Source: Schumannella sp. 10F1B-5-1 (GTDB taxonomy: Bacteria > Actinomycetota > Actinomycetes > Actinomycetales > Microbacteriaceae). Taken from it: a DNA stretch of 64,000 bases. The notes under the pieces were generated by a model. That model was not told where the DNA came from and did no database searches. It was given only the letters and a program-made list of their open reading frames with translations. This document shows, in pieces, positions 18,464 through 49,428 of the stretch (positions within the stretch are counted from its first letter, which is position 1; the number at the start of each line of letters is the position of its first letter). The stretch is from NCBI RefSeq assembly GCF_006517535.1, contig NZ_VHQH01000036.1, forward strand, positions 16,638-80,637, given 5' to 3'. The position numbers were made by a program, and so were the translations under genes.

Positions 18464-19774
18464 ATGCGCCGCGGCACCAACCTCGTCGCCGTCGGCGGCT
18501 TCAACCAGGCCGTCGTGCTCGACCTGATCCGCCGCGCGCCCGAGGGCCTCAGCCGCGTCGAGCTGGCGCACGCCTCGGGGCTCAGCCCGCAGACGGTGAG
18601 CAACGTCGCCCGCCGGCTGATCGACGACGGGCTCGTGCTCGAGGCCGGCAAGCAGGTCAACGGCCGCGGCAAGCCGCGCACGATCCTGCAGCTCGACGCC
18701 CAGGGCGGCTTCGCGATCGGCGTGCACCTCGACCCCTCGCTGATCGCGTTCGTGATCACCGACCTCGACGGCGCCGTCGTGGCCCGCCGCATCCAGCGCA
18801 CCCCCGTCGCCGCGTCGCCGACCCAGGTGCTCGACGCGATGCAGACCTCGATCGACGAGCTGCTGGCCGACTCGCCCGAGGTGCCGCGCGATCGCGTGCT
18901 CGGCGTCGGCATCGCGGCTCCGGGTCCGATCGACCGCGAGCGCGGCGTGATCGTGAACCCGCCGCTGCTGCCGGGCTGGGATGCGGTGCCCCTGCGCGAC
19001 GAGCTCGCGCGCCGGCTCGGGGTTCCGGTCGTGCTCGAGAAGGACGTGACCGCCGCCGCCGCGGCCGAGCTCTGGTCGGCGACCGGGCACGACGGCGACG
19101 ACTTCGCGTTCTTCTACTACGGCTCGGGCGTCGGGCTCGGCATCGTGCTCGACCACACCGTGCTGCGCGGCGCCTCGGCGAACGTCGGCGACGTCGGTCA
19201 CACGGTCGTGCGCGCCGCGGGGGCCGGGGGAGTGCCGTGCCAGTGCGGCATGGCCGGCTGTCTGGGCGTGCAGACGAGCCCGCTGCGGCTTGTGCGCCAG
19301 GCCGCCGAGGAGGGCGTGATCGGCGGGCCGGGCGGAGCGGGCGGAGCAGCCGGGCCGGGCGGAGCCGACGGCGTCGACGGGCGCGCGGATCTCGACGACC
19401 TCGAGGACCCCGAGACGCTCTTCGCCGCTTTCCGCGAGCTCGCCGACCGCGTCGAGCAGGGCGATCCGCGGGCGCAGGCGCTGTTCGGCGCGCTGGCCGA
19501 CGACGTGGCGACGGCGCTCGTGCGCTTCGCCGACCTGCTCGACGTCGATCGCATCGTCTGCGGCGGCCCGTTCTGGGAGCCGGTGGGGCGGCTCATGCTC
19601 GGCCGGGTCGAGCGCGCGGTGCGCACCTCGCCCGCGCTCGTGACCCCGCATCCCGTGCGCATCGGCTCGAGCGCGGCGGGCGACGACGTCACCGCGATCG
19701 GCGCGGCCTGCCAGGTGCTGGATGCGCTCTACTCGCCGCGCCCCGCGAACCTGCTGCTCGCCGCCGGCGCCTGA
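18464..19774 (+). CDS. ROK-family transcriptional regulator (second)
   Basis: 436 residues. Winged HTH about residues 10-60 (SRVELAHASGLSPQTVSNVARRLIDDG), then the ROK fold with GVGIAAPGPID and the zinc motif CQCGMAGC. The kinase motif GEIGH is altered to GDVGH, fitting a sensor rather than an enzyme. A Gly/Ala-rich insert follows the zinc site (about 286-305). Divergent from nagA and upstream of the importer-2 operon, so either could be its target. Confidence 0.87.
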   Translation: MRRGTNLVAVGGFNQAVVLDLIRRAPEGLSRVELAHASGLSPQTVSNVARRLIDDGLVLEAGKQVNGRGKPRTILQLDAQGGFAIGVHLDPSLIAFVITDLDGAVVARRIQRTPVAASPTQVLDAMQTSIDELLADSPEVPRDRVLGVGIAAPGPIDRERGVIVNPPLLPGWDAVPLRDELARRLGVPVVLEKDVTAAAAAELWSATGHDGDDFAFFYYGSGVGLGIVLDHTVLRGASANVGDVGHTVVRAAGAGGVPCQCGMAGCLGVQTSPLRLVRQAAEEGVIGGPGGAGGAAGPGGADGVDGRADLDDLEDPETLFAAFRELADRVEQGDPRAQALFGALADDVATALVRFADLLDVDRIVCGGPFWEPVGRLMLGRVERAVRTSPALVTPHPVRIGSSAAGDDVTAIGAACQVLDALYSPRPANLLLAAGA

Positions 19775-28206: not shown

Positions 28207-29523
28207 ATGACTCGTGTTGTCTTCCTCGGCGCCGGCAGCGTCGTCTTCACCCGTCAGCTCGTCGCCGACCTCATGTCGTACGACGACCTGCCGCCCCTCA
28301 CCCTCGTGCTGCACGACATCGACGCCGAGCGCCTCGACGTCGCCGTCGACACGGCGCGCCAGGTCGCCGAGCGCCGCGGCCGCACCCTCGAGGTCGTGCC
28401 CGCGCTCGACCGCCGTGAGGCGCTCGCCGGGGCCGACTTCGTCGTGAACATGATCCAGGTGGGCGGCATCGACGCCACCCGCATCGATCTCGAGCTCCCG
28501 GCATCCCGGGGCCTGCGCCAGACGATCGGCGACACCACGGGCATCGGCGGCGTCTTCCGCGCGCTGCGCACCTTCCCCGTGCTGTCGGGCATCGCCCGCG
28601 ACATGCTCGAGCTGTGCCCCGACGCCTGGTTCCTGAACTACACGAACCCGATGGCCATGAACATCTGGTGGATGGCGACGGTCGCCCCCTCGATCAAGGC
28701 CGCCGGCCTCTGCCACAGCGTCTACTGGACGGTCAACGACCTCTGCGAGCTCGTCGGCGTGCCGCTCGAGGGCACGACCTTCCGCGCCGCCGGCGTCAAC
28801 CACCAGGCGTGGCTCTACGAGTGGTCGCGCGACGGCGAGTCGCTCTATCCCGCGCTGCGCGACAAGATCGCCGCCGACCCCGAGCTCGAGCGCCGCGTGC
28901 GCGTCGAGATCTTCCGTCGCATCGGCTTCTACCCGACCGAGACGAGCGAGCACTCGAGCGAGTACCTGTCGTGGTTCCTGCGCGACGACGCGCAGATCGA
29001 GCGCTTCCGCCTGAAGCCGCTGGAGTACATCGGCATCTCGGAGCAGAACGTCGCCGAGTTCCACCACGCCCAGGAGGCCCTGGCCTCGGGCGCGCCCCTC
29101 GAGCTCGAGGAAGGCGCCGCGGAGTACGCGCCCCAGATCATCCACTCGATGCTCACCGGCACCGAGCGCCAGATCCACGCGAACGTCGTCAACCGCGGCC
29201 TGATCGACAACCTGCCCCCGGGCGCGGTCGTCGAGGTGCCGTCGCGGGTGGATGCGGCGGGCGTCACCCCGCTCGCGGTCGGCGCGATCCCCGCGCCGGG
29301 CGCCGCCCTCAACCGCACCTACCTCTCGGTCGCCGAGCTCACGATCGAGGCCGCGCGCACCGGCTCGCGCGAGCTCGTGCACCAGGCCGTGCTCGTCGAC
29401 CCGAACGCGTCGTCGTCGCTCACGCCGGCCGCGCTGGCCTCGCTCGTCGACGAGATGCTCGTCGCCCACCGGGCCGTGCTGCCGGCCTCGCTCGGCGGCG
29501 ACATCGAGCTGGTCCTTCCGTGA
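28207..29523 (+). CDS. Glycoside hydrolase family 4, probable alpha-galactosidase type
   Basis: 438 residues. GH4 enzymes use NAD+ and a divalent metal in a redox-elimination mechanism. Visible: the Rossmann motif FLGAGSVVFTRQL, the metal ligands Cys169 (GLCHS) and His199 (NHQAW), NYTNPMAMN and GIGGVFRALRT. The last two resemble MelA-type alpha-galactosidases more than phospho-beta-glucosidases; alpha-galactosaminide or glucuronide activity cannot be excluded. ATG 28207 is the start that opens the Rossmann strand. The stop overlaps the aldolase start (GTGA). Confidence 0.87.
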   Translation: MTRVVFLGAGSVVFTRQLVADLMSYDDLPPLTLVLHDIDAERLDVAVDTARQVAERRGRTLEVVPALDRREALAGADFVVNMIQVGGIDATRIDLELPASRGLRQTIGDTTGIGGVFRALRTFPVLSGIARDMLELCPDAWFLNYTNPMAMNIWWMATVAPSIKAAGLCHSVYWTVNDLCELVGVPLEGTTFRAAGVNHQAWLYEWSRDGESLYPALRDKIAADPELERRVRVEIFRRIGFYPTETSEHSSEYLSWFLRDDAQIERFRLKPLEYIGISEQNVAEFHHAQEALASGAPLELEEGAAEYAPQIIHSMLTGTERQIHANVVNRGLIDNLPPGAVVEVPSRVDAAGVTPLAVGAIPAPGAALNRTYLSVAELTIEAARTGSRELVHQAVLVDPNASSSLTPAALASLVDEMLVAHRAVLPASLGGDIELVLP

Positions 29524-30434
29524 CGCTCGCCCGCTCGGGCGATCTGGTCGCGGCCGCCGCCGCGCGCGGGGGAGCCGTGGCCGCGGTCAACGCGATCATG
29601 CTCGAGCACGTCGAGGCGATCGTCGCCGGCGCGACCGAGACGGGTCGCGGCGTGATCGTGCAGCTCAGCGAGAACGCCACCACCTACCACGGCGGCGACC
29701 CGGTTCCGCTGCTCTCGGCGGCGCAGGCGCTCGCCGCGGCGGCGCCCGTTCCGGTCGCGCTGCACCTCGACCACGTGCAGGACGACGCGCTGCTCGCTCG
29801 CTCGCTCGAGATCGCCGCAGCCGTCGGGCTGTCGTCGGTCATGGTGGATGCGGCCCGCCTCGACTACGCCGACAACGTGGCCGCCACGGCGCGCTTCGCC
29901 GAGGCCGCGCACGCGGTCGACCTGGGAGGGGTGCGGTTCGGGGCGGGTGCAGGGGCGGGCGACGCGGGTTCCGCATCCACGGGCTCGGGGCTCTACGTCG
30001 AGGCCGAGCTCGGCGAGGTCGGCGGAAAGGACGGCGCCCACGCGCCCGGCGTGCGCACCGACCCCGACGAGGCGGCGGCGTTCGTCGCGGCGACGGGCGT
30101 GGATGCGCTGGCCGTCGCCGTGGGCAGCTCGCATGCCATGACGTCCCGCACGGCGGCGCTCGACGTCGACCTGATCGCGCGTCTGGCGTCGGCCGTTCCG
30201 GTGCCGCTCGTGCTGCATGGTTCGAGCGGCGTGCCCGACGACGCGCTCGTCGCGGCGGCGCGGGCCGGCATCCGCAAGATCAACGTGGGCACCGCGCTCA
30301 ACGTGGTCGGCACGGCCGCCGTGCGCGCCGAGCTCGCCGCGCGCCCCGACGCCGTCGACCCGCGCAAGCCCTGGGCCGCCGCCCGTGCCGCGATGACGCG
30401 CGAGGTCGCCCGCCTGCTCGCCCTTCTGCCCTAG
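29520..30434 (+). CDS. Class II ketose-bisphosphate aldolase (GatY/FbaA family)
   Basis: 304 residues. Zn-dependent aldolase with Asp84-His85 in HLDH, His205 in VGSSHAM and His233 in LVLHGSSGVPDD. These match the catalytic Asp and three Zn ligands of the family. KINVGTALN is the C-terminal phosphate loop. It cleaves fructose- or tagatose-1,6-bisphosphate. With the SIS isomerase and PfkB kinase under the same apparent operator, tagatose-1,6-bisphosphate is the better guess. A Gly/Ala-rich insert (about 138-158) just before YVEAELGEVGG is odd for so conserved an enzyme. Confidence 0.88.
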   Translation: MTLARSGDLVAAAAARGGAVAAVNAIMLEHVEAIVAGATETGRGVIVQLSENATTYHGGDPVPLLSAAQALAAAAPVPVALHLDHVQDDALLARSLEIAAAVGLSSVMVDAARLDYADNVAATARFAEAAHAVDLGGVRFGAGAGAGDAGSASTGSGLYVEAELGEVGGKDGAHAPGVRTDPDEAAAFVAATGVDALAVAVGSSHAMTSRTAALDVDLIARLASAVPVPLVLHGSSGVPDDALVAAARAGIRKINVGTALNVVGTAAVRAELAARPDAVDPRKPWAAARAAMTREVARLLALLP

Positions 30435-30489
30435 CGTCGTCCGCGTCCCGTCCTGCCGACCAGCCCCGCATCCGCTCCCTCCCGCATCC

Positions 30490-30620
30490 GAGGGTGGCCG
30501 CGTCTGCCCGGCACGCACGGCGTGTCGCGTGCGTTTGTGGCCACCCTCGGGAATGCGCCGGGTGAGGGTGGCCACGTCTGCACGCCGTGGGCGGCGTGTC
30601 GCGGGCATTCGTGGCCACCC
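30490..30620. repeat. Tandem pair of 57-nt palindromic repeats, locus 1
   Basis: Two units (30490-30546 and 30564-30620), each beginning GAGGGTGGCC and ending GTGGCCACCC, separated by 17 nt, so the period is 74 nt. The ends of each unit are inverse complements and can form a long hairpin. The pair lies in the 237-nt gap between convergent aldolase and amidohydrolase genes. An equivalent pair is at 48002-48132. No coding function is seen in this gap. Confidence 0.85.
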
Positions 30621-30671
30621 GCGGCTGCGCTCGACGCTAGGGATGGGATGGTCCGCGAACCGGCGGGCGGC

Positions 30672-31841
30672 CTACAGGCCGAGCACGCGCCGCGCGTTGC
30701 CGCGGTAGATGCGCTCGAGCAGCTCGGGCGGCAGGCCCAGCGCCGAGACGGTCCAGCGTCCCTGGGGCGGGATGTCGGCGTCCGGCGCGTAGGTGAAGGC
30801 CTCGTCGAGCGTCTCGAGGAAGCGGAAGTGCAGGCGGTACTGCTCCAGCGTCGCCGGGTAGATGTCGGTGCCGAAGTGCACGCGGTCGCCGAAGCGATCG
30901 AGCAGCACGCGCAGGCGGCGCGGCTGGCGGCCCAGCTCGGCCATGCGGCCGGCGATGTCGACGGTGTAGTTGGGGGATGCGGCCAGCATCCGCTCGACCA
31001 GGTCGAGGTCCTCGGCGGCGCAGCCGAAGTGCGCGCCGATGAAGCGCGTGCCCGGGCAGGCGGCCACGAGGGCCGCGTGCGAGGCCAGCAGCTGGTCGAA
31101 GGTCGGGTAGACGGCGGCGTCGCCGAACCACCACTCCTTCATGACGAGCAGCTCGTCGAGGCGCTCGTTGCGCTCGTCGAGCGGGGCGAAGAACGCCTTC
31201 GGGTCGGCGGTGTGGATGAGCACGGGCAGCCCGAGCTCGCCCGCGTGCCGCAGCACGGCGATCACGCGCGGGTCGTCGGGCTGCACCAGCACGCCGTCGG
31301 CGTCGCGGAACGTGAGGCCGAGGCTCTTCCAGACCTTCACGCCGCGGGCGCCGCGGGCGGCGCTGTCGTCGAGCGAGGCGATCAGCTGCTGCACGACGGG
31401 GTCGGCGAGCGGGTCGGATGCGGCGGGCGAGCCGTCAGCACCAGCACCGACACCAGCACCAGCACCAGCAACAGCACCGACACCGTCGCCGCCACCCCCG
31501 TGCGACCCCTCGAGCAGCTTCCAGTCGAGCTGGCAGAACGTGAAGAACCGCCCGGGATAGGCGCGGTCGTAGCGCTCGACGTTCGCGGTGACCTCGTCGC
31601 CCCACATGCCGTCGAGGTTGACGACGGCCTCGACGTTCGCGGCGTCCATGGTCGCGACGAGCGCGGCGACGTCGTCGATCATCCAGTCGCCGTCGTCGGT
31701 CAGCCAGCGGCCGAGGTGGTTGTGGATGTCGATCGCGGGCACCGCGGCGCGCTCCACCTCGGTGACGGGCGGCTGCAGCTGCTGCTGCGGCGTCCAGTCG
31801 ATGAGGGGCAGCTCGCGGAGCTCCTCCCAGCTGCGTTCCAT
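30672..31841 (-). CDS. Amidohydrolase-family (PF04909-like) metal hydrolase
   Basis: 389 residues. TIM-barrel amidohydrolase: AIDIHNHLGRW near the N-terminus gives the HxH metal pair; later come LIHTAD, FIGAHFGC and the catalytic Asp in VHFGTDIYP. A low-complexity Gly/Ala/Val insert (about residues 113-140), encoded by CAGCAC-like repeats at about 31437-31490, interrupts an otherwise ordinary protein. Relatives hydrolyse lactones or decarboxylate; this substrate is unknown. It is divergent from the SIS isomerase gene across a putative DeoR operator, which suggests co-regulation with the sugar genes. Confidence 0.75.
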   Translation of the reverse strand: MERSWEELRELPLIDWTPQQQLQPPVTEVERAAVPAIDIHNHLGRWLTDDGDWMIDDVAALVATMDAANVEAVVNLDGMWGDEVTANVERYDRAYPGRFFTFCQLDWKLLEGSHGGGGDGVGAVAGAGAGVGAGADGSPAASDPLADPVVQQLIASLDDSAARGARGVKVWKSLGLTFRDADGVLVQPDDPRVIAVLRHAGELGLPVLIHTADPKAFFAPLDERNERLDELLVMKEWWFGDAAVYPTFDQLLASHAALVAACPGTRFIGAHFGCAAEDLDLVERMLAASPNYTVDIAGRMAELGRQPRRLRVLLDRFGDRVHFGTDIYPATLEQYRLHFRFLETLDEAFTYAPDADIPPQGRWTVSALGLPPELLERIYRGNARRVLGL

Positions 31842-45600: not shown

Positions 45601-45710
45601 TAGACTCGCCGTGTCGCGACTGGCGTTCGGATGGGCTCACCATCAGGGAGCGACTGACACAAGGGACCTGCTCGATCATCGGGCGGGACGGCCGTCCGCC
45701 TGGGCCGTGA
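45601..45710 (+). ncRNA. ZTP (pfl) riboswitch with its promoter
   Basis: A -10 box TAGACT (45601-45606) is followed by GTCGCGACTGGCG and, after a hairpin (GGATGGGCTCACCATC), GGGAGCGACTGACAC, then CCGCCTGGGC at 45698-45707. These are the conserved blocks of the pfl/ZTP aptamer in the right order, with pairing GTGTCGC/GCGACTGACAC. It senses ZMP/ZTP, which signals 10-formyl-THF shortage, and usually turns on one-carbon genes. It directly precedes glyA-folD. Confidence 0.88.
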
Positions 45711-45739
45711 CCGACATCCCGTATCAGTTGAGGAGCCCC

Positions 45740-47030: not shown

Positions 47031-47918
47031 GTGACCGCCATCCGCCTCGACGGCGTCGCGACCGCGGCCGCCATCAAGTCCGAGCTGAAGACCCGAGTGG
47101 ATGCGCTGCGCGAGCGCGGCGTCGTGCCCGGCCTCGGCACGCTGCTGGTGGGCGCCGACGGCGCCTCGGTCAGCTACGTCAGCGGCAAGCACCGCGACTC
47201 GGCCGAGATCGGCGTGGAGTCGATCCGCGTCGACCTGCCCGCCGACGCGACCGAGGCCGAGGTGCACGCCGAGATCCAGCGCCTCAACGCCGACCCCGCC
47301 GTGACCGGCTACCTGGTGCAGCTGCCGCTGCCGAAGGGCATGGACGAGCACGCCGCGATCACGGCCGTCGACCCGGCGAAAGACGTCGACGGCCTGCACC
47401 CGGCGAACCTGGGCGAGCTCGTGCTGGGCGTCGAGGGCGAGCTGACGACGCCGCTGCCGTGCACGCCGGCGGGCGTGGTCGAGCTGCTGCGCCGTTACGA
47501 CGTGCCGCTCTCGGGCAAGCACGTGGTCGTGATCGGCCGTGGTCTCACGGTCGGCCGTCCGCTCGGCCTGCTGCTCACCCGCAAGGGCATCGACGCGACC
47601 GTCACGCTGACGCACTCGCGCACCGCCGACCTGGCCGCCGAGGTGCGCCGGGCGGATGTGGTGGTCGCCGCCGTCGGCCAGCCGCACCTGGTGAAGCCCG
47701 ACTGGATCAAGCCGGGCGCCGCGGTGCTGGATGTGGGCGTGACCCGCGTCGGCGTGACCGAGTCGGGCAAGGCGAAGCTCGCGGGCGACGTCGACCCCTC
47801 GGTGATCGACGTGGCCGGCTGGCTCTCGCCCAACCCGGGCGGCGTCGGGCCGATGACCCGCGCGATGCTCATGCAGAACGTGGTGCTGGCGGCCGAGCGC
47901 GCCGCCGGGCTGGTCTAG
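47031..47918 (+). CDS. folD: Methylenetetrahydrofolate dehydrogenase/cyclohydrolase
   Basis: 295 residues. Bifunctional NADP-dependent enzyme converting 5,10-methylene-THF to 10-formyl-THF. Motifs: [13 protein letters not shown] (catalytic Lys), [39 protein letters not shown] and the Rossmann segment [17 protein letters not shown]. Start GTG 47031. Second gene of the riboswitch-controlled operon, making 10-formyl-THF when ZTP reports its shortage. Confidence 0.96.
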
Positions 47919-48001
47919 CCGGCTTCCGCTTCCGCGCCCTCGTGCCGACGAGCCCGTCGAGGTGTCACTCTGGGCGGCGTTCCCTTCGCCCCGCCCGTGG
48001 C

Positions 48002-48132
48002 GAGGGTGGCCACGAAAGCACACCGCTGACGGCGTTTCGCGTGCATTCGTGGCCATCCTCGGGCTGCCTGGGCTTGAGGGTGGCCACATCTGCTCGTTGC
48101 GCGCGGCGTGTCGAGTGCATTTGTGGCCACCC
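48002..48132. repeat. Tandem pair of 57-nt palindromic repeats, locus 2
   Basis: Units 48002-48058 and 48076-48132, with the same 57-nt length, 17-nt spacer and 74-nt period as the pair at 30490-30620, and the same GAGGGTGGCC and GTGGCCA-C ends. It lies in the 349-nt gap between convergent folD and galK. The rest of the gap shows only a small CGGCAT-type hairpin near 48248 and no coding potential. Confidence 0.85.
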
Positions 48133-48267
48133 CGTCGGCACGACCAACGGGGGGGACGTGAACGCGAGGCGCCACGCGTACGGTGCCGACCTTCGTCGAC
48201 GCGACCGGCGAGTACTGCTCGCGCCGCGGTCCGAATTGCCCAACCCATGCCGCGCACGGCATGCGCC

Positions 48268-49428
48268 TCAGCGGTCGCGCTGAGCCCCCAGCGACGGCCG
48301 CACCACGAAGGTCGTCGGCGCCGTGAAGCCGTGCTCGGCGAAGGCGCCGTCGATCGCGACCTGCAGCAGCGACACCGACTCGAGCGGCACGAGGGCGATC
48401 GCCGATCCGCCGAAGCCGCCGCCGGTCATCCGGGCGCCGACCGCGCCGTTCGCCTGGGCGACCTCGACCGCGAGGTCGAGCTCGGGCACCGAGATCTCGA
48501 AGTCGTCGCGCATCGAGCGGTGCGAGGCGTCGAGCAGGTCGCCGATGGCGCGCGGGCCCTCCTCGCGCAGGGTGCGCACGGTGTCGAGCACGCGCTGGTT
48601 CTCGGTCACGATGTGCCGCACCCGGCGGAAGGTCTCGTCGTCGAGGGTCTGCTGCGCGCGCGGCAGGTCGTCGACGTCGAGCTCGCGCAGCGTCGCGACG
48701 CCCATCTCGCGGGCGCCCTTCTCGCAGGAGGCGCGGCGATCGCGGTAGCCGCCCGAGGCGTGCTCGTGCTCGACGTGCGTGTCGATCACGACGACGGCGA
48801 GGCCCGCATCCGCGAACCCGAGGGGGAGGACCTCGGCGTCGAGGCTGCGGCAGTCGAGGAAGACGCCGGAGTCGGCGCGGCCGAGCAGCGAGGCCGACTG
48901 GTCCATGATCCCGGTCGGGGCGCCGACGGCGTCGTTCTCGGCCTTCTGGCCGACCTTCGCGAGCGTCTCGGGGCTGAGGCCGAGCTGCCAGACGTCGTTG
49001 AGCGCGACCGCGACGGCCGACTCGATCGCGGCCGACGACGACAGGCCGGCGCCGACGGGAACGGTCGACTCGATGAAGATGTCGACGCCGGGCACGCCCT
49101 GCAGGTCGGCGCCGAACTGGCCGAGCGCCCAGGCGACGCCGAGCGGGTAGGCCGACCAGCCGGAGAGCGACTCGGGATCGAGGTCGTCGAGGGAGTGCTC
49201 GGCCAGCTCGTCGCTGAACGCCGAGGCGATGCGCAGCATCCGGTCGTCGCGCGCGCCGAGCGCGATCACCGTGCGGCGGTCGATCGCGAAGGGGAAGACG
49301 AAGCCCTCGTTGTAGTCGGTGTGCTCGCCGATCAGGTTGACGCGGCCGGGGGCCGACCAGATGCCGTCGGGCTCGCGGCCGGTGAAGGCGAGGAAGGCGT
49401 CGGCGACGTCGTCGCGGATGTCGGTCAT
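48268..49428 (-). CDS. galK: Galactokinase
   Basis: 386 residues, GHMP kinase family. Phosphorylates galactose to galactose-1-phosphate. The galactose-binding signature GRVNLIGEHTDYNEGFVFPF is at the N-terminus, the ATP loop PVGAGLSSSAAIE in the middle, and MTGGGFGGSAIALV near the C-terminus. ATG 49428. It is downstream of galT in the same orientation with an 80-nt gap. Confidence 0.96.
   Translation of the reverse strand: MTDIRDDVADAFLAFTGREPDGIWSAPGRVNLIGEHTDYNEGFVFPFAIDRRTVIALGARDDRMLRIASAFSDELAEHSLDDLDPESLSGWSAYPLGVAWALGQFGADLQGVPGVDIFIESTVPVGAGLSSSAAIESAVAVALNDVWQLGLSPETLAKVGQKAENDAVGAPTGIMDQSASLLGRADSGVFLDCRSLDAEVLPLGFADAGLAVVVIDTHVEHEHASGGYRDRRASCEKGAREMGVATLRELDVDDLPRAQQTLDDETFRRVRHIVTENQRVLDTVRTLREEGPRAIGDLLDASHRSMRDDFEISVPELDLAVEVAQANGAVGARMTGGGFGGSAIALVPLESVSLLQVAIDGAFAEHGFTAPTTFVVRPSLGAQRDR

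Follow-up and report, generated by a model that had tools for sequence, protein, structure and literature searches.

A REP-like palindromic element in 74-nt arrays and a DUF559-type protein as its probable partner

Described palindromic repeats and the paired units of the window

Arrays of palindromes between genes are familiar from the BIMEs of Escherichia coli. A second point of comparison is offered by the EDxHD or Vsr-like homing endonucleases, including I-Bth0305I (PDB 3r3p). REP elements are described, in the available portions of PMC2817692 and PMC3733652, as short extragenic palindromes of 20-40 bp with lineage-specific stems that occur in many copies and in clusters. In the same portions, REP palindromes are associated with the enzyme RAYT, RAYT genes are reported to be always flanked by inverted REPs (PMC2817692), and other palindrome superfamilies are left without a known enzyme; the CGTC-tagged REPs, for example, are dispersed palindromes with no dedicated transposase known (PMC3733652). 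The word Actinobacteria is absent from the text of PMC3733652.

We analyzed a stretch of 64,000 nt from a Schumannella genome (hereafter the window), in which two pairs of hairpin units each lie between convergent genes. Locus 1 consists of unit 1 (30489..30549, minus strand) and, 74 nt downstream, unit 2 (30563..30623, minus strand), separated by a 13-nt spacer (30550..30562) whose length is kept among arrays while its sequence is not. It follows a class II fructose-bisphosphate aldolase family gene (29520..30434, plus strand; PF01116) and faces a convergent amidohydrolase family gene (30672..31841, minus strand; PF04909). Locus 2 has the same layout, with units at 48001..48061 and 48075..48135 (both minus strand), a 13-nt spacer at 48062..48074, a FolD-type gene upstream (47031..47918, plus strand; PF00763/PF02882) and a convergent galactokinase-type gene (48268..49428, minus strand; PF10509, GHMP). 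The units are asymmetric in that a motif, GACACGCCG, read on the minus strand, occupies one side of the loop; it is exact in three of the four units, and unit 1 of locus 2 carries it with one change, as GAAACGCCG.

The first-pass annotation had described two-unit pairs at 30490-30546/30564-30620 and 48002-48058/48076-48132, and these pairs are real, with a start-to-start distance of 74 nt in both. Its unit of 57 nt and spacer of 17 nt were correct in being equal at the two loci, but the true palindrome is about 61 nt long and the spacer 13 nt. The proposal that inverse-complementary unit ends allow a long hairpin was borne out by folding z-scores against dinucleotide shuffles, which were -6.15, -2.33, -6.18, and -3.81 for single units and -5.84 and -8.04 for the two whole pairs. 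The short arm alone (GGGTGGCCAC, one mismatch) showed no excess in the window, with 11 matches against a shuffle mean of 7.8. Rfam matches at gathering score in the window were limited to tRNA and a ZMP-ZTP riboswitch, and the hairpin units matched no Rfam family. The riboswitch (45606-45712) stands directly before the gene that precedes folD.

The resemblance to REP/BIME elements suggested by the first-pass annotation holds for genome-wide copies (62 units in 28 arrays in the window's own genome), palindromy, a mostly extragenic location at gene 3' ends (2 of 101 arrays examined lie inside a called gene), lineage-specific stems, and a bracketed enzyme gene; it fails for RAYT. A REP-type transposase, which that annotation proposed to look for, did not appear: PF01797, the RAYT fold, has no match in the window's own genome (G000) or in its congeners G003, G004, and G002, and an Escherichia coli control was positive. 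We therefore rejected RAYT as the partner in the window's genus, given the absence of PF01797 from the unit-rich genomes G000, G003, and G004; the single PF01797 match, in G001, contains a stop, and that genome has only weak unit matches. Like REPs with RAYT in the available portions of PMC2817692 and PMC3733652, the present units flank, as two copies, the gene of a DNA-cutting enzyme, here a putative one. Unlike REPs, they measure about 61 nt instead of 20-40 bp, show no GTAG tag, keep a loop motif, and form head-to-tail arrays; the partner is of DUF559 type, and the bracketing copies have no fixed orientation, in contrast to the inverted REPs of the available text of PMC2817692. Across 24 aligned units the ends show no invariant, unpaired GTAG, and only the GACACGCCG loop positions are invariant. 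Because the three defining features that we tested (RAYT, GTAG, and length) are absent, this is a REP-like system yet not a member of the REP (GTAG/RAYT) family. The CGTC-tagged REPs differ as well, since the present units show no CGTC tag and do have a candidate enzyme. With BIMEs, compared here by description and not by sequence, the units share the form of intergenic palindrome arrays but differ in a constant 74-nt head-to-tail period with unlike spacers. Among the matches listed in open-licence PMC text, we found nothing on the GACACGCCG motif or on DUF559 with palindromes.

Taken together, the window probably holds four enzyme-less copies of a REP-like palindromic element whose partner is a DUF559/REase_MTES_1575-type protein and not RAYT, a reading to which we assign a probability of roughly two in three.

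Copies in related genomes and a hairpin with a changing stem

The window's own draft genome (3.28 Mb, 324 contigs) contains the exact two-arm pattern at 8 places, against 0 in the reversed control. A covariance model (R1) built from 23 ungapped units returned 130 matches at E 1 in this genome (both strands counted; 150 candidates scored), and a weight matrix over the fetched loci gave the total of 62 units in 28 arrays of 1-4 units, so the genome search that the first-pass annotation had called for yielded many further copies. Units within one array share orientation. Of 34 adjacent spacings, 31 are exactly 74 nt and the remaining three are 73, 72, and 64 nt; two further neighbours, recognized by the covariance model only, stand at 90 and 73 nt. 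Between arrays, the letter identity of the 31 spacers of 13 nt is 0.294, compared with 0.279 when shuffled, and that of the units is 0.746, indicating that spacer length is kept where spacer sequence is not. A coding repeat was rejected because 74 is not a multiple of three. In one four-unit array (L123:3140-3226), two adjacent spacers do not differ at all, which suggests that a 74-nt unit was recently duplicated in tandem.

In G003, a congener with a complete genome, 21 array loci score E 3e-4 or better; many of its units measure 62 nt by the model, and the 74-nt period is mostly kept, with one pair at 85 nt. Positions are largely common to G000 and G003: by reading of the loci, the equivalent G003 gap also contains units for 13 G000 loci, with differing unit numbers at corresponding places, and two further comparisons (L101-L132 and L106-L135) have neighbours in common but not the gap. 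At one of the 13, a single unit lies within a coding Cons_hypoth698 gene at the same place in both species (L107:2086-2146 in G000, L136:2095-2155 in G003) and adds a peptide to the protein. The congener G004 has fewer units than G003, G002 has no convincing unit, and G001 has weak unit matches only.

In the family, 398 genomes from 85 genera were surveyed with model R1 at E 0.001, and 34 genomes in 17 genera gave matches; in the order, model R2 at E 1e-4 matched 20 of the 396 genomes surveyed, from 16 of 110 genera; with 13 candidates scored per genome, true numbers may be higher, and chance matches are included in these counts. Some survey matches are without GACACGCCG and look like chance or other palindromes. 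In one wider search, 9 of 11 stretches were single matches from other genera of several phyla, and we set them aside as probable chance. Units outside the window's genus are mostly single, with the exceptions of L202 and L225, at 73 and 83 nt. The former (L202:1429-1562, in G458 of another family) comprises two nearly identical units with array-like spacing.

Across these genomes, the unit consists of a stem of about 23 bp and a loop of about 13-17 nt that begins with GACACGCCG, for an overall length of about 59-63 nt. In other genera and families the stems are wholly different yet paired, and GACACGCCG is kept in most retrieved units. An alignment of 24 units (A5), whose rows were found partly with pairing as a criterion, has 87.9% of cells paired; both partners have changed in 22 of 23 pairs, giving 118 such cells where shuffles give 38.8 (0 of 500), and the signal collapses in slid controls. 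One-side changes occur in only 9 cells and G-U pairs hardly at all; so few one-side changes are expected of a DNA palindrome rather than of an RNA helix.

Three units of G072 that lie apart from one another agree letter for letter over exactly 61 nt, the variable half of the loop included, and their flanks are unlike, which points to the 61 nt as the unit copied. The suggestion that the pair is the mobile unit was not upheld, given these 61-nt copies, the mostly single units of other genera, and the arrays of 1-4 units in G000. A search for empty sites at g67 loci against G245 stretches gave no usable pair, and the site after folD in G003 holds another palindrome and an extra gene instead of an empty site. 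Flank complementarity lends weak support to insertion into terminator stems (g67, 4/300 swaps; g76, 41; g1, 194; the rest, 48).

A DUF559-type gene bracketed by units

In both G000 and G003, a DUF559 gene lies between two arrays (in G000 at C13:314338-315762, L111), and a bracketed DUF559 gene is likewise present in G004 and in G245, a genome of another genus. Three more genomes joined the list when we fetched further close pairs: G473 and G053, which represent two other families, and G327, from a different genus of the window's family. With g1 counted once, the bracketed DUF559/REase_MTES_1575-type gene is found independently at five loci, which span five genera and three families; most bracketed loci were fetched because units were near. 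At all seven bracketed loci the gap between unit and gene is at most 180 nt on both sides, and the bracketing units follow no fixed orientation. Outside g1, the loci have no close neighbour gene in common, the one exception being a weak match (33%) that links L225 with L237.

Among the matches listed, nine model-match pairs, picked by eye, lie 600-1300 nt apart, a distance window set post hoc after the first cases; six of the nine enclose a DUF559-type gene, or four of seven when the three orthologous g1 loci are merged. The other three enclose an NYN protein, an FMN oxidoreductase, and an unknown protein, and one more bracketed DUF559-type case, beyond the six, is found in G327. No DUF559 homologue is enclosed by any of the four pairs 2.0-2.7 kb apart (L221, L222, L227, and L228) or by the scan-found pairs in L054 and L236. 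For comparison, 1.66 Mb of background (evenly spaced samples from four genomes, with about 1229 genes counted in these samples, plus the window) held two full-length and two weak DUF559 homologues.

The DUF559 gene sampled in G245 (L246) stands between palindromes that are nearly identical and belong to a second stem class; it is the only gene of the 1229 with 10/10 matching flanking stems, two others reaching 9. This type of stem recurs elsewhere in G245, in a GACACGCCG unit where a called gene ends (L217). No palindrome flanks the full-length homologue sampled in G327 (L285), and at two weak G245 homologues such palindromes are absent or loose. A weak G245 homologue at L256:7529-8497 lies between loose palindromes with AACCGAGG-type stems and loops of 38-39 nt. 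In G466, a weak DUF559 homologue adjoins one unit.

The seven bracketed proteins (alignment A6) have in common the S and E of an ESPxE-like stretch, a D, an E..GD.HR stretch, and a later D. At E 0.1, Pfam assigns DUF559 to 6 of 7, REase_MTES_1575 to 5, and AbiEi_1 to 1; at the Pfam cut-offs, DUF559 is passed by 4 and REase_MTES_1575 by none. The G473 protein (L225) matches neither Pfam family and was joined to the others via a profile of our own (E 2.7e-33). With PADLOC AbiEi models at most 3 of the 7 proteins give a match, and with NCBIfam none. Profile matches to PDB entries are weak, namely the endonuclease-like 3hrl at E 0.026 and the mobile intron protein 3r3p at E 0.51. The bracketed protein is likely a nuclease, as predicted from its sequence; a DUF559/REase_MTES_1575-type protein is a probable Vsr-like or EDxHD nuclease. 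Its weak match to 3r3p is the likeness to the EDxHD or Vsr-like homing endonucleases, from which the present case differs in that no intron or homing target was seen and that the protein goes with dispersed hairpins. We rejected a phage or plasmid vehicle, because one DUF559 query, from L215, found nothing in plasmids (E 1e-8) or phages (E 1e-5), and viral contigs yielded no stretch with one exact core pattern.

The hairpins may have been spread by the bracketed putative nuclease, which would then have a role in their copying. Such a DUF559-type enzyme would recognize the loop motif together with the stem and cut at the element or its target, after which repair would copy the element; copies would spread and be retained where harmless, behind stop codons. 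In the window's genus, the units would further have multiplied head to tail, the 74-nt spacing (about seven helical turns) might be held by selection and place bound proteins on one face of the DNA, and some copies may now act as two-way transcription barriers. The fullest form of this proposal is tentative, though we take it seriously: in Actinobacteria, DUF559-type endonucleases would copy a new class of mobile palindromes by cleavage and repair, each enzyme lineage would have its own stem and all would have a one-sided loop code in common, and in one genus the copies would have been domesticated as helically phased arrays (74 nt) in the origin region.

Gene context, chromosomal position and rival explanations

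Gene context was evaluated with a home-made gene caller for 101 arrays (28 from G000, 22 from G003, and 51 from other genomes); some loci are orthologous or were fetched twice, so the counts are not fully independent, and at L122 the first unit runs into the start of a called gene. The arrays comprise 58 in tandem gaps, 27 in convergent gaps, 11 in divergent gaps, 2 inside genes, and 3 at edges, and the 177 background gaps of at least 90 nt comprise 94 tandem, 24 convergent, and 59 divergent. The expectation that copies map to convergent intergenic regions was right as to enrichment (27/96 arrays against 24/177 background gaps), but tandem gaps hold the majority (58/96). This distribution is what gives weight to the idea that the units are bidirectional transcription terminators or protectors of mRNA 3' ends, that is, GC-rich hairpins past stop codons that end the transcription of both neighbours, the DUF559 link being incidental. 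Divergent gaps are avoided (11/96 against 59/177), tandem-gap arrays begin a median of 36.5 nt past the upstream stop and end 120.5 nt ahead of the next start, and the flanks of g67 and g76 are C/T-rich before the unit and A/G-rich after it. We nevertheless judge this explanation unlikely, since neither window locus has a terminator-like T-run site, G-U pairs are nearly lacking, in two species a unit sits within a coding gene at a matching position, and the 74-nt period is left without explanation. Moreover, the loop strand is random with respect to the gene (25 same, 33 opposite) despite the one-sided motif, which also disfavours a loop function at the RNA level.

Exact phasing over unlike spacers would, on the other hand, suit arrays that bind a protein organizing or anchoring the origin region, for which the RacA ram and MatP matS sites provide a comparison. 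The third of the chromosome nearest dnaA contains 18 of 21 G003 arrays, 28 of 52 G245 units, and 6 of 9 G327 units (KS p 6.4e-06, 0.001, and 0.045), so that clustering at the origin is seen in three of the four complete genomes tested. In the fourth, G407, only 5 of 27 units are so placed; the window's counterpart in G003 is about 1.15 Mb away from the origin, the congener G002 has no convincing unit, and the bias could reflect older, better conserved DNA. A chromosome-domain role like that of those sites appears quite improbable, and the origin bias is not general. Least credible to us is that the units are ordinary debris of an unknown transposon, with the DUF559 bracketing a by-product of sampling near units. 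The manner of sampling speaks for it, as bracketed loci were mostly fetched near units, the distance window was post hoc, and A5 rows were partly chosen by pairing; against it stand the DUF559 rate in close pairs relative to background genes, the palindrome control on random genes, stems that covary while half of the loop is kept across families, and a spacing that is kept where sequence is not.

If a DUF559/REase_MTES_1575-type partner is the correct reading, DUF559 would be a second palindrome enzyme, unrelated to RAYT, which would give a role to a Pfam family of unknown function, explain repeats of a large group of soil bacteria, and open the origin of orphan REPs to testing. A phasing fixed at 74 nt over spacers of free sequence provides a clean natural experiment on spacing selection in repeat arrays. 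Other palindrome classes, with stems of GAGTTGCCCACTTC and GAGCGCGGGGTTCC types, also occur in the window's genus (L136:2492-2555, L049:168-223, and L085 at about 19270-19350). In the G000 draft, three contigs end within about 0.7 kb of arrays (C2:635-769, C13:435511-435719, and C321:462-596), and the genes at the starts of C2 and C321 match one single place in G003; the arrays may have broken the assembly.
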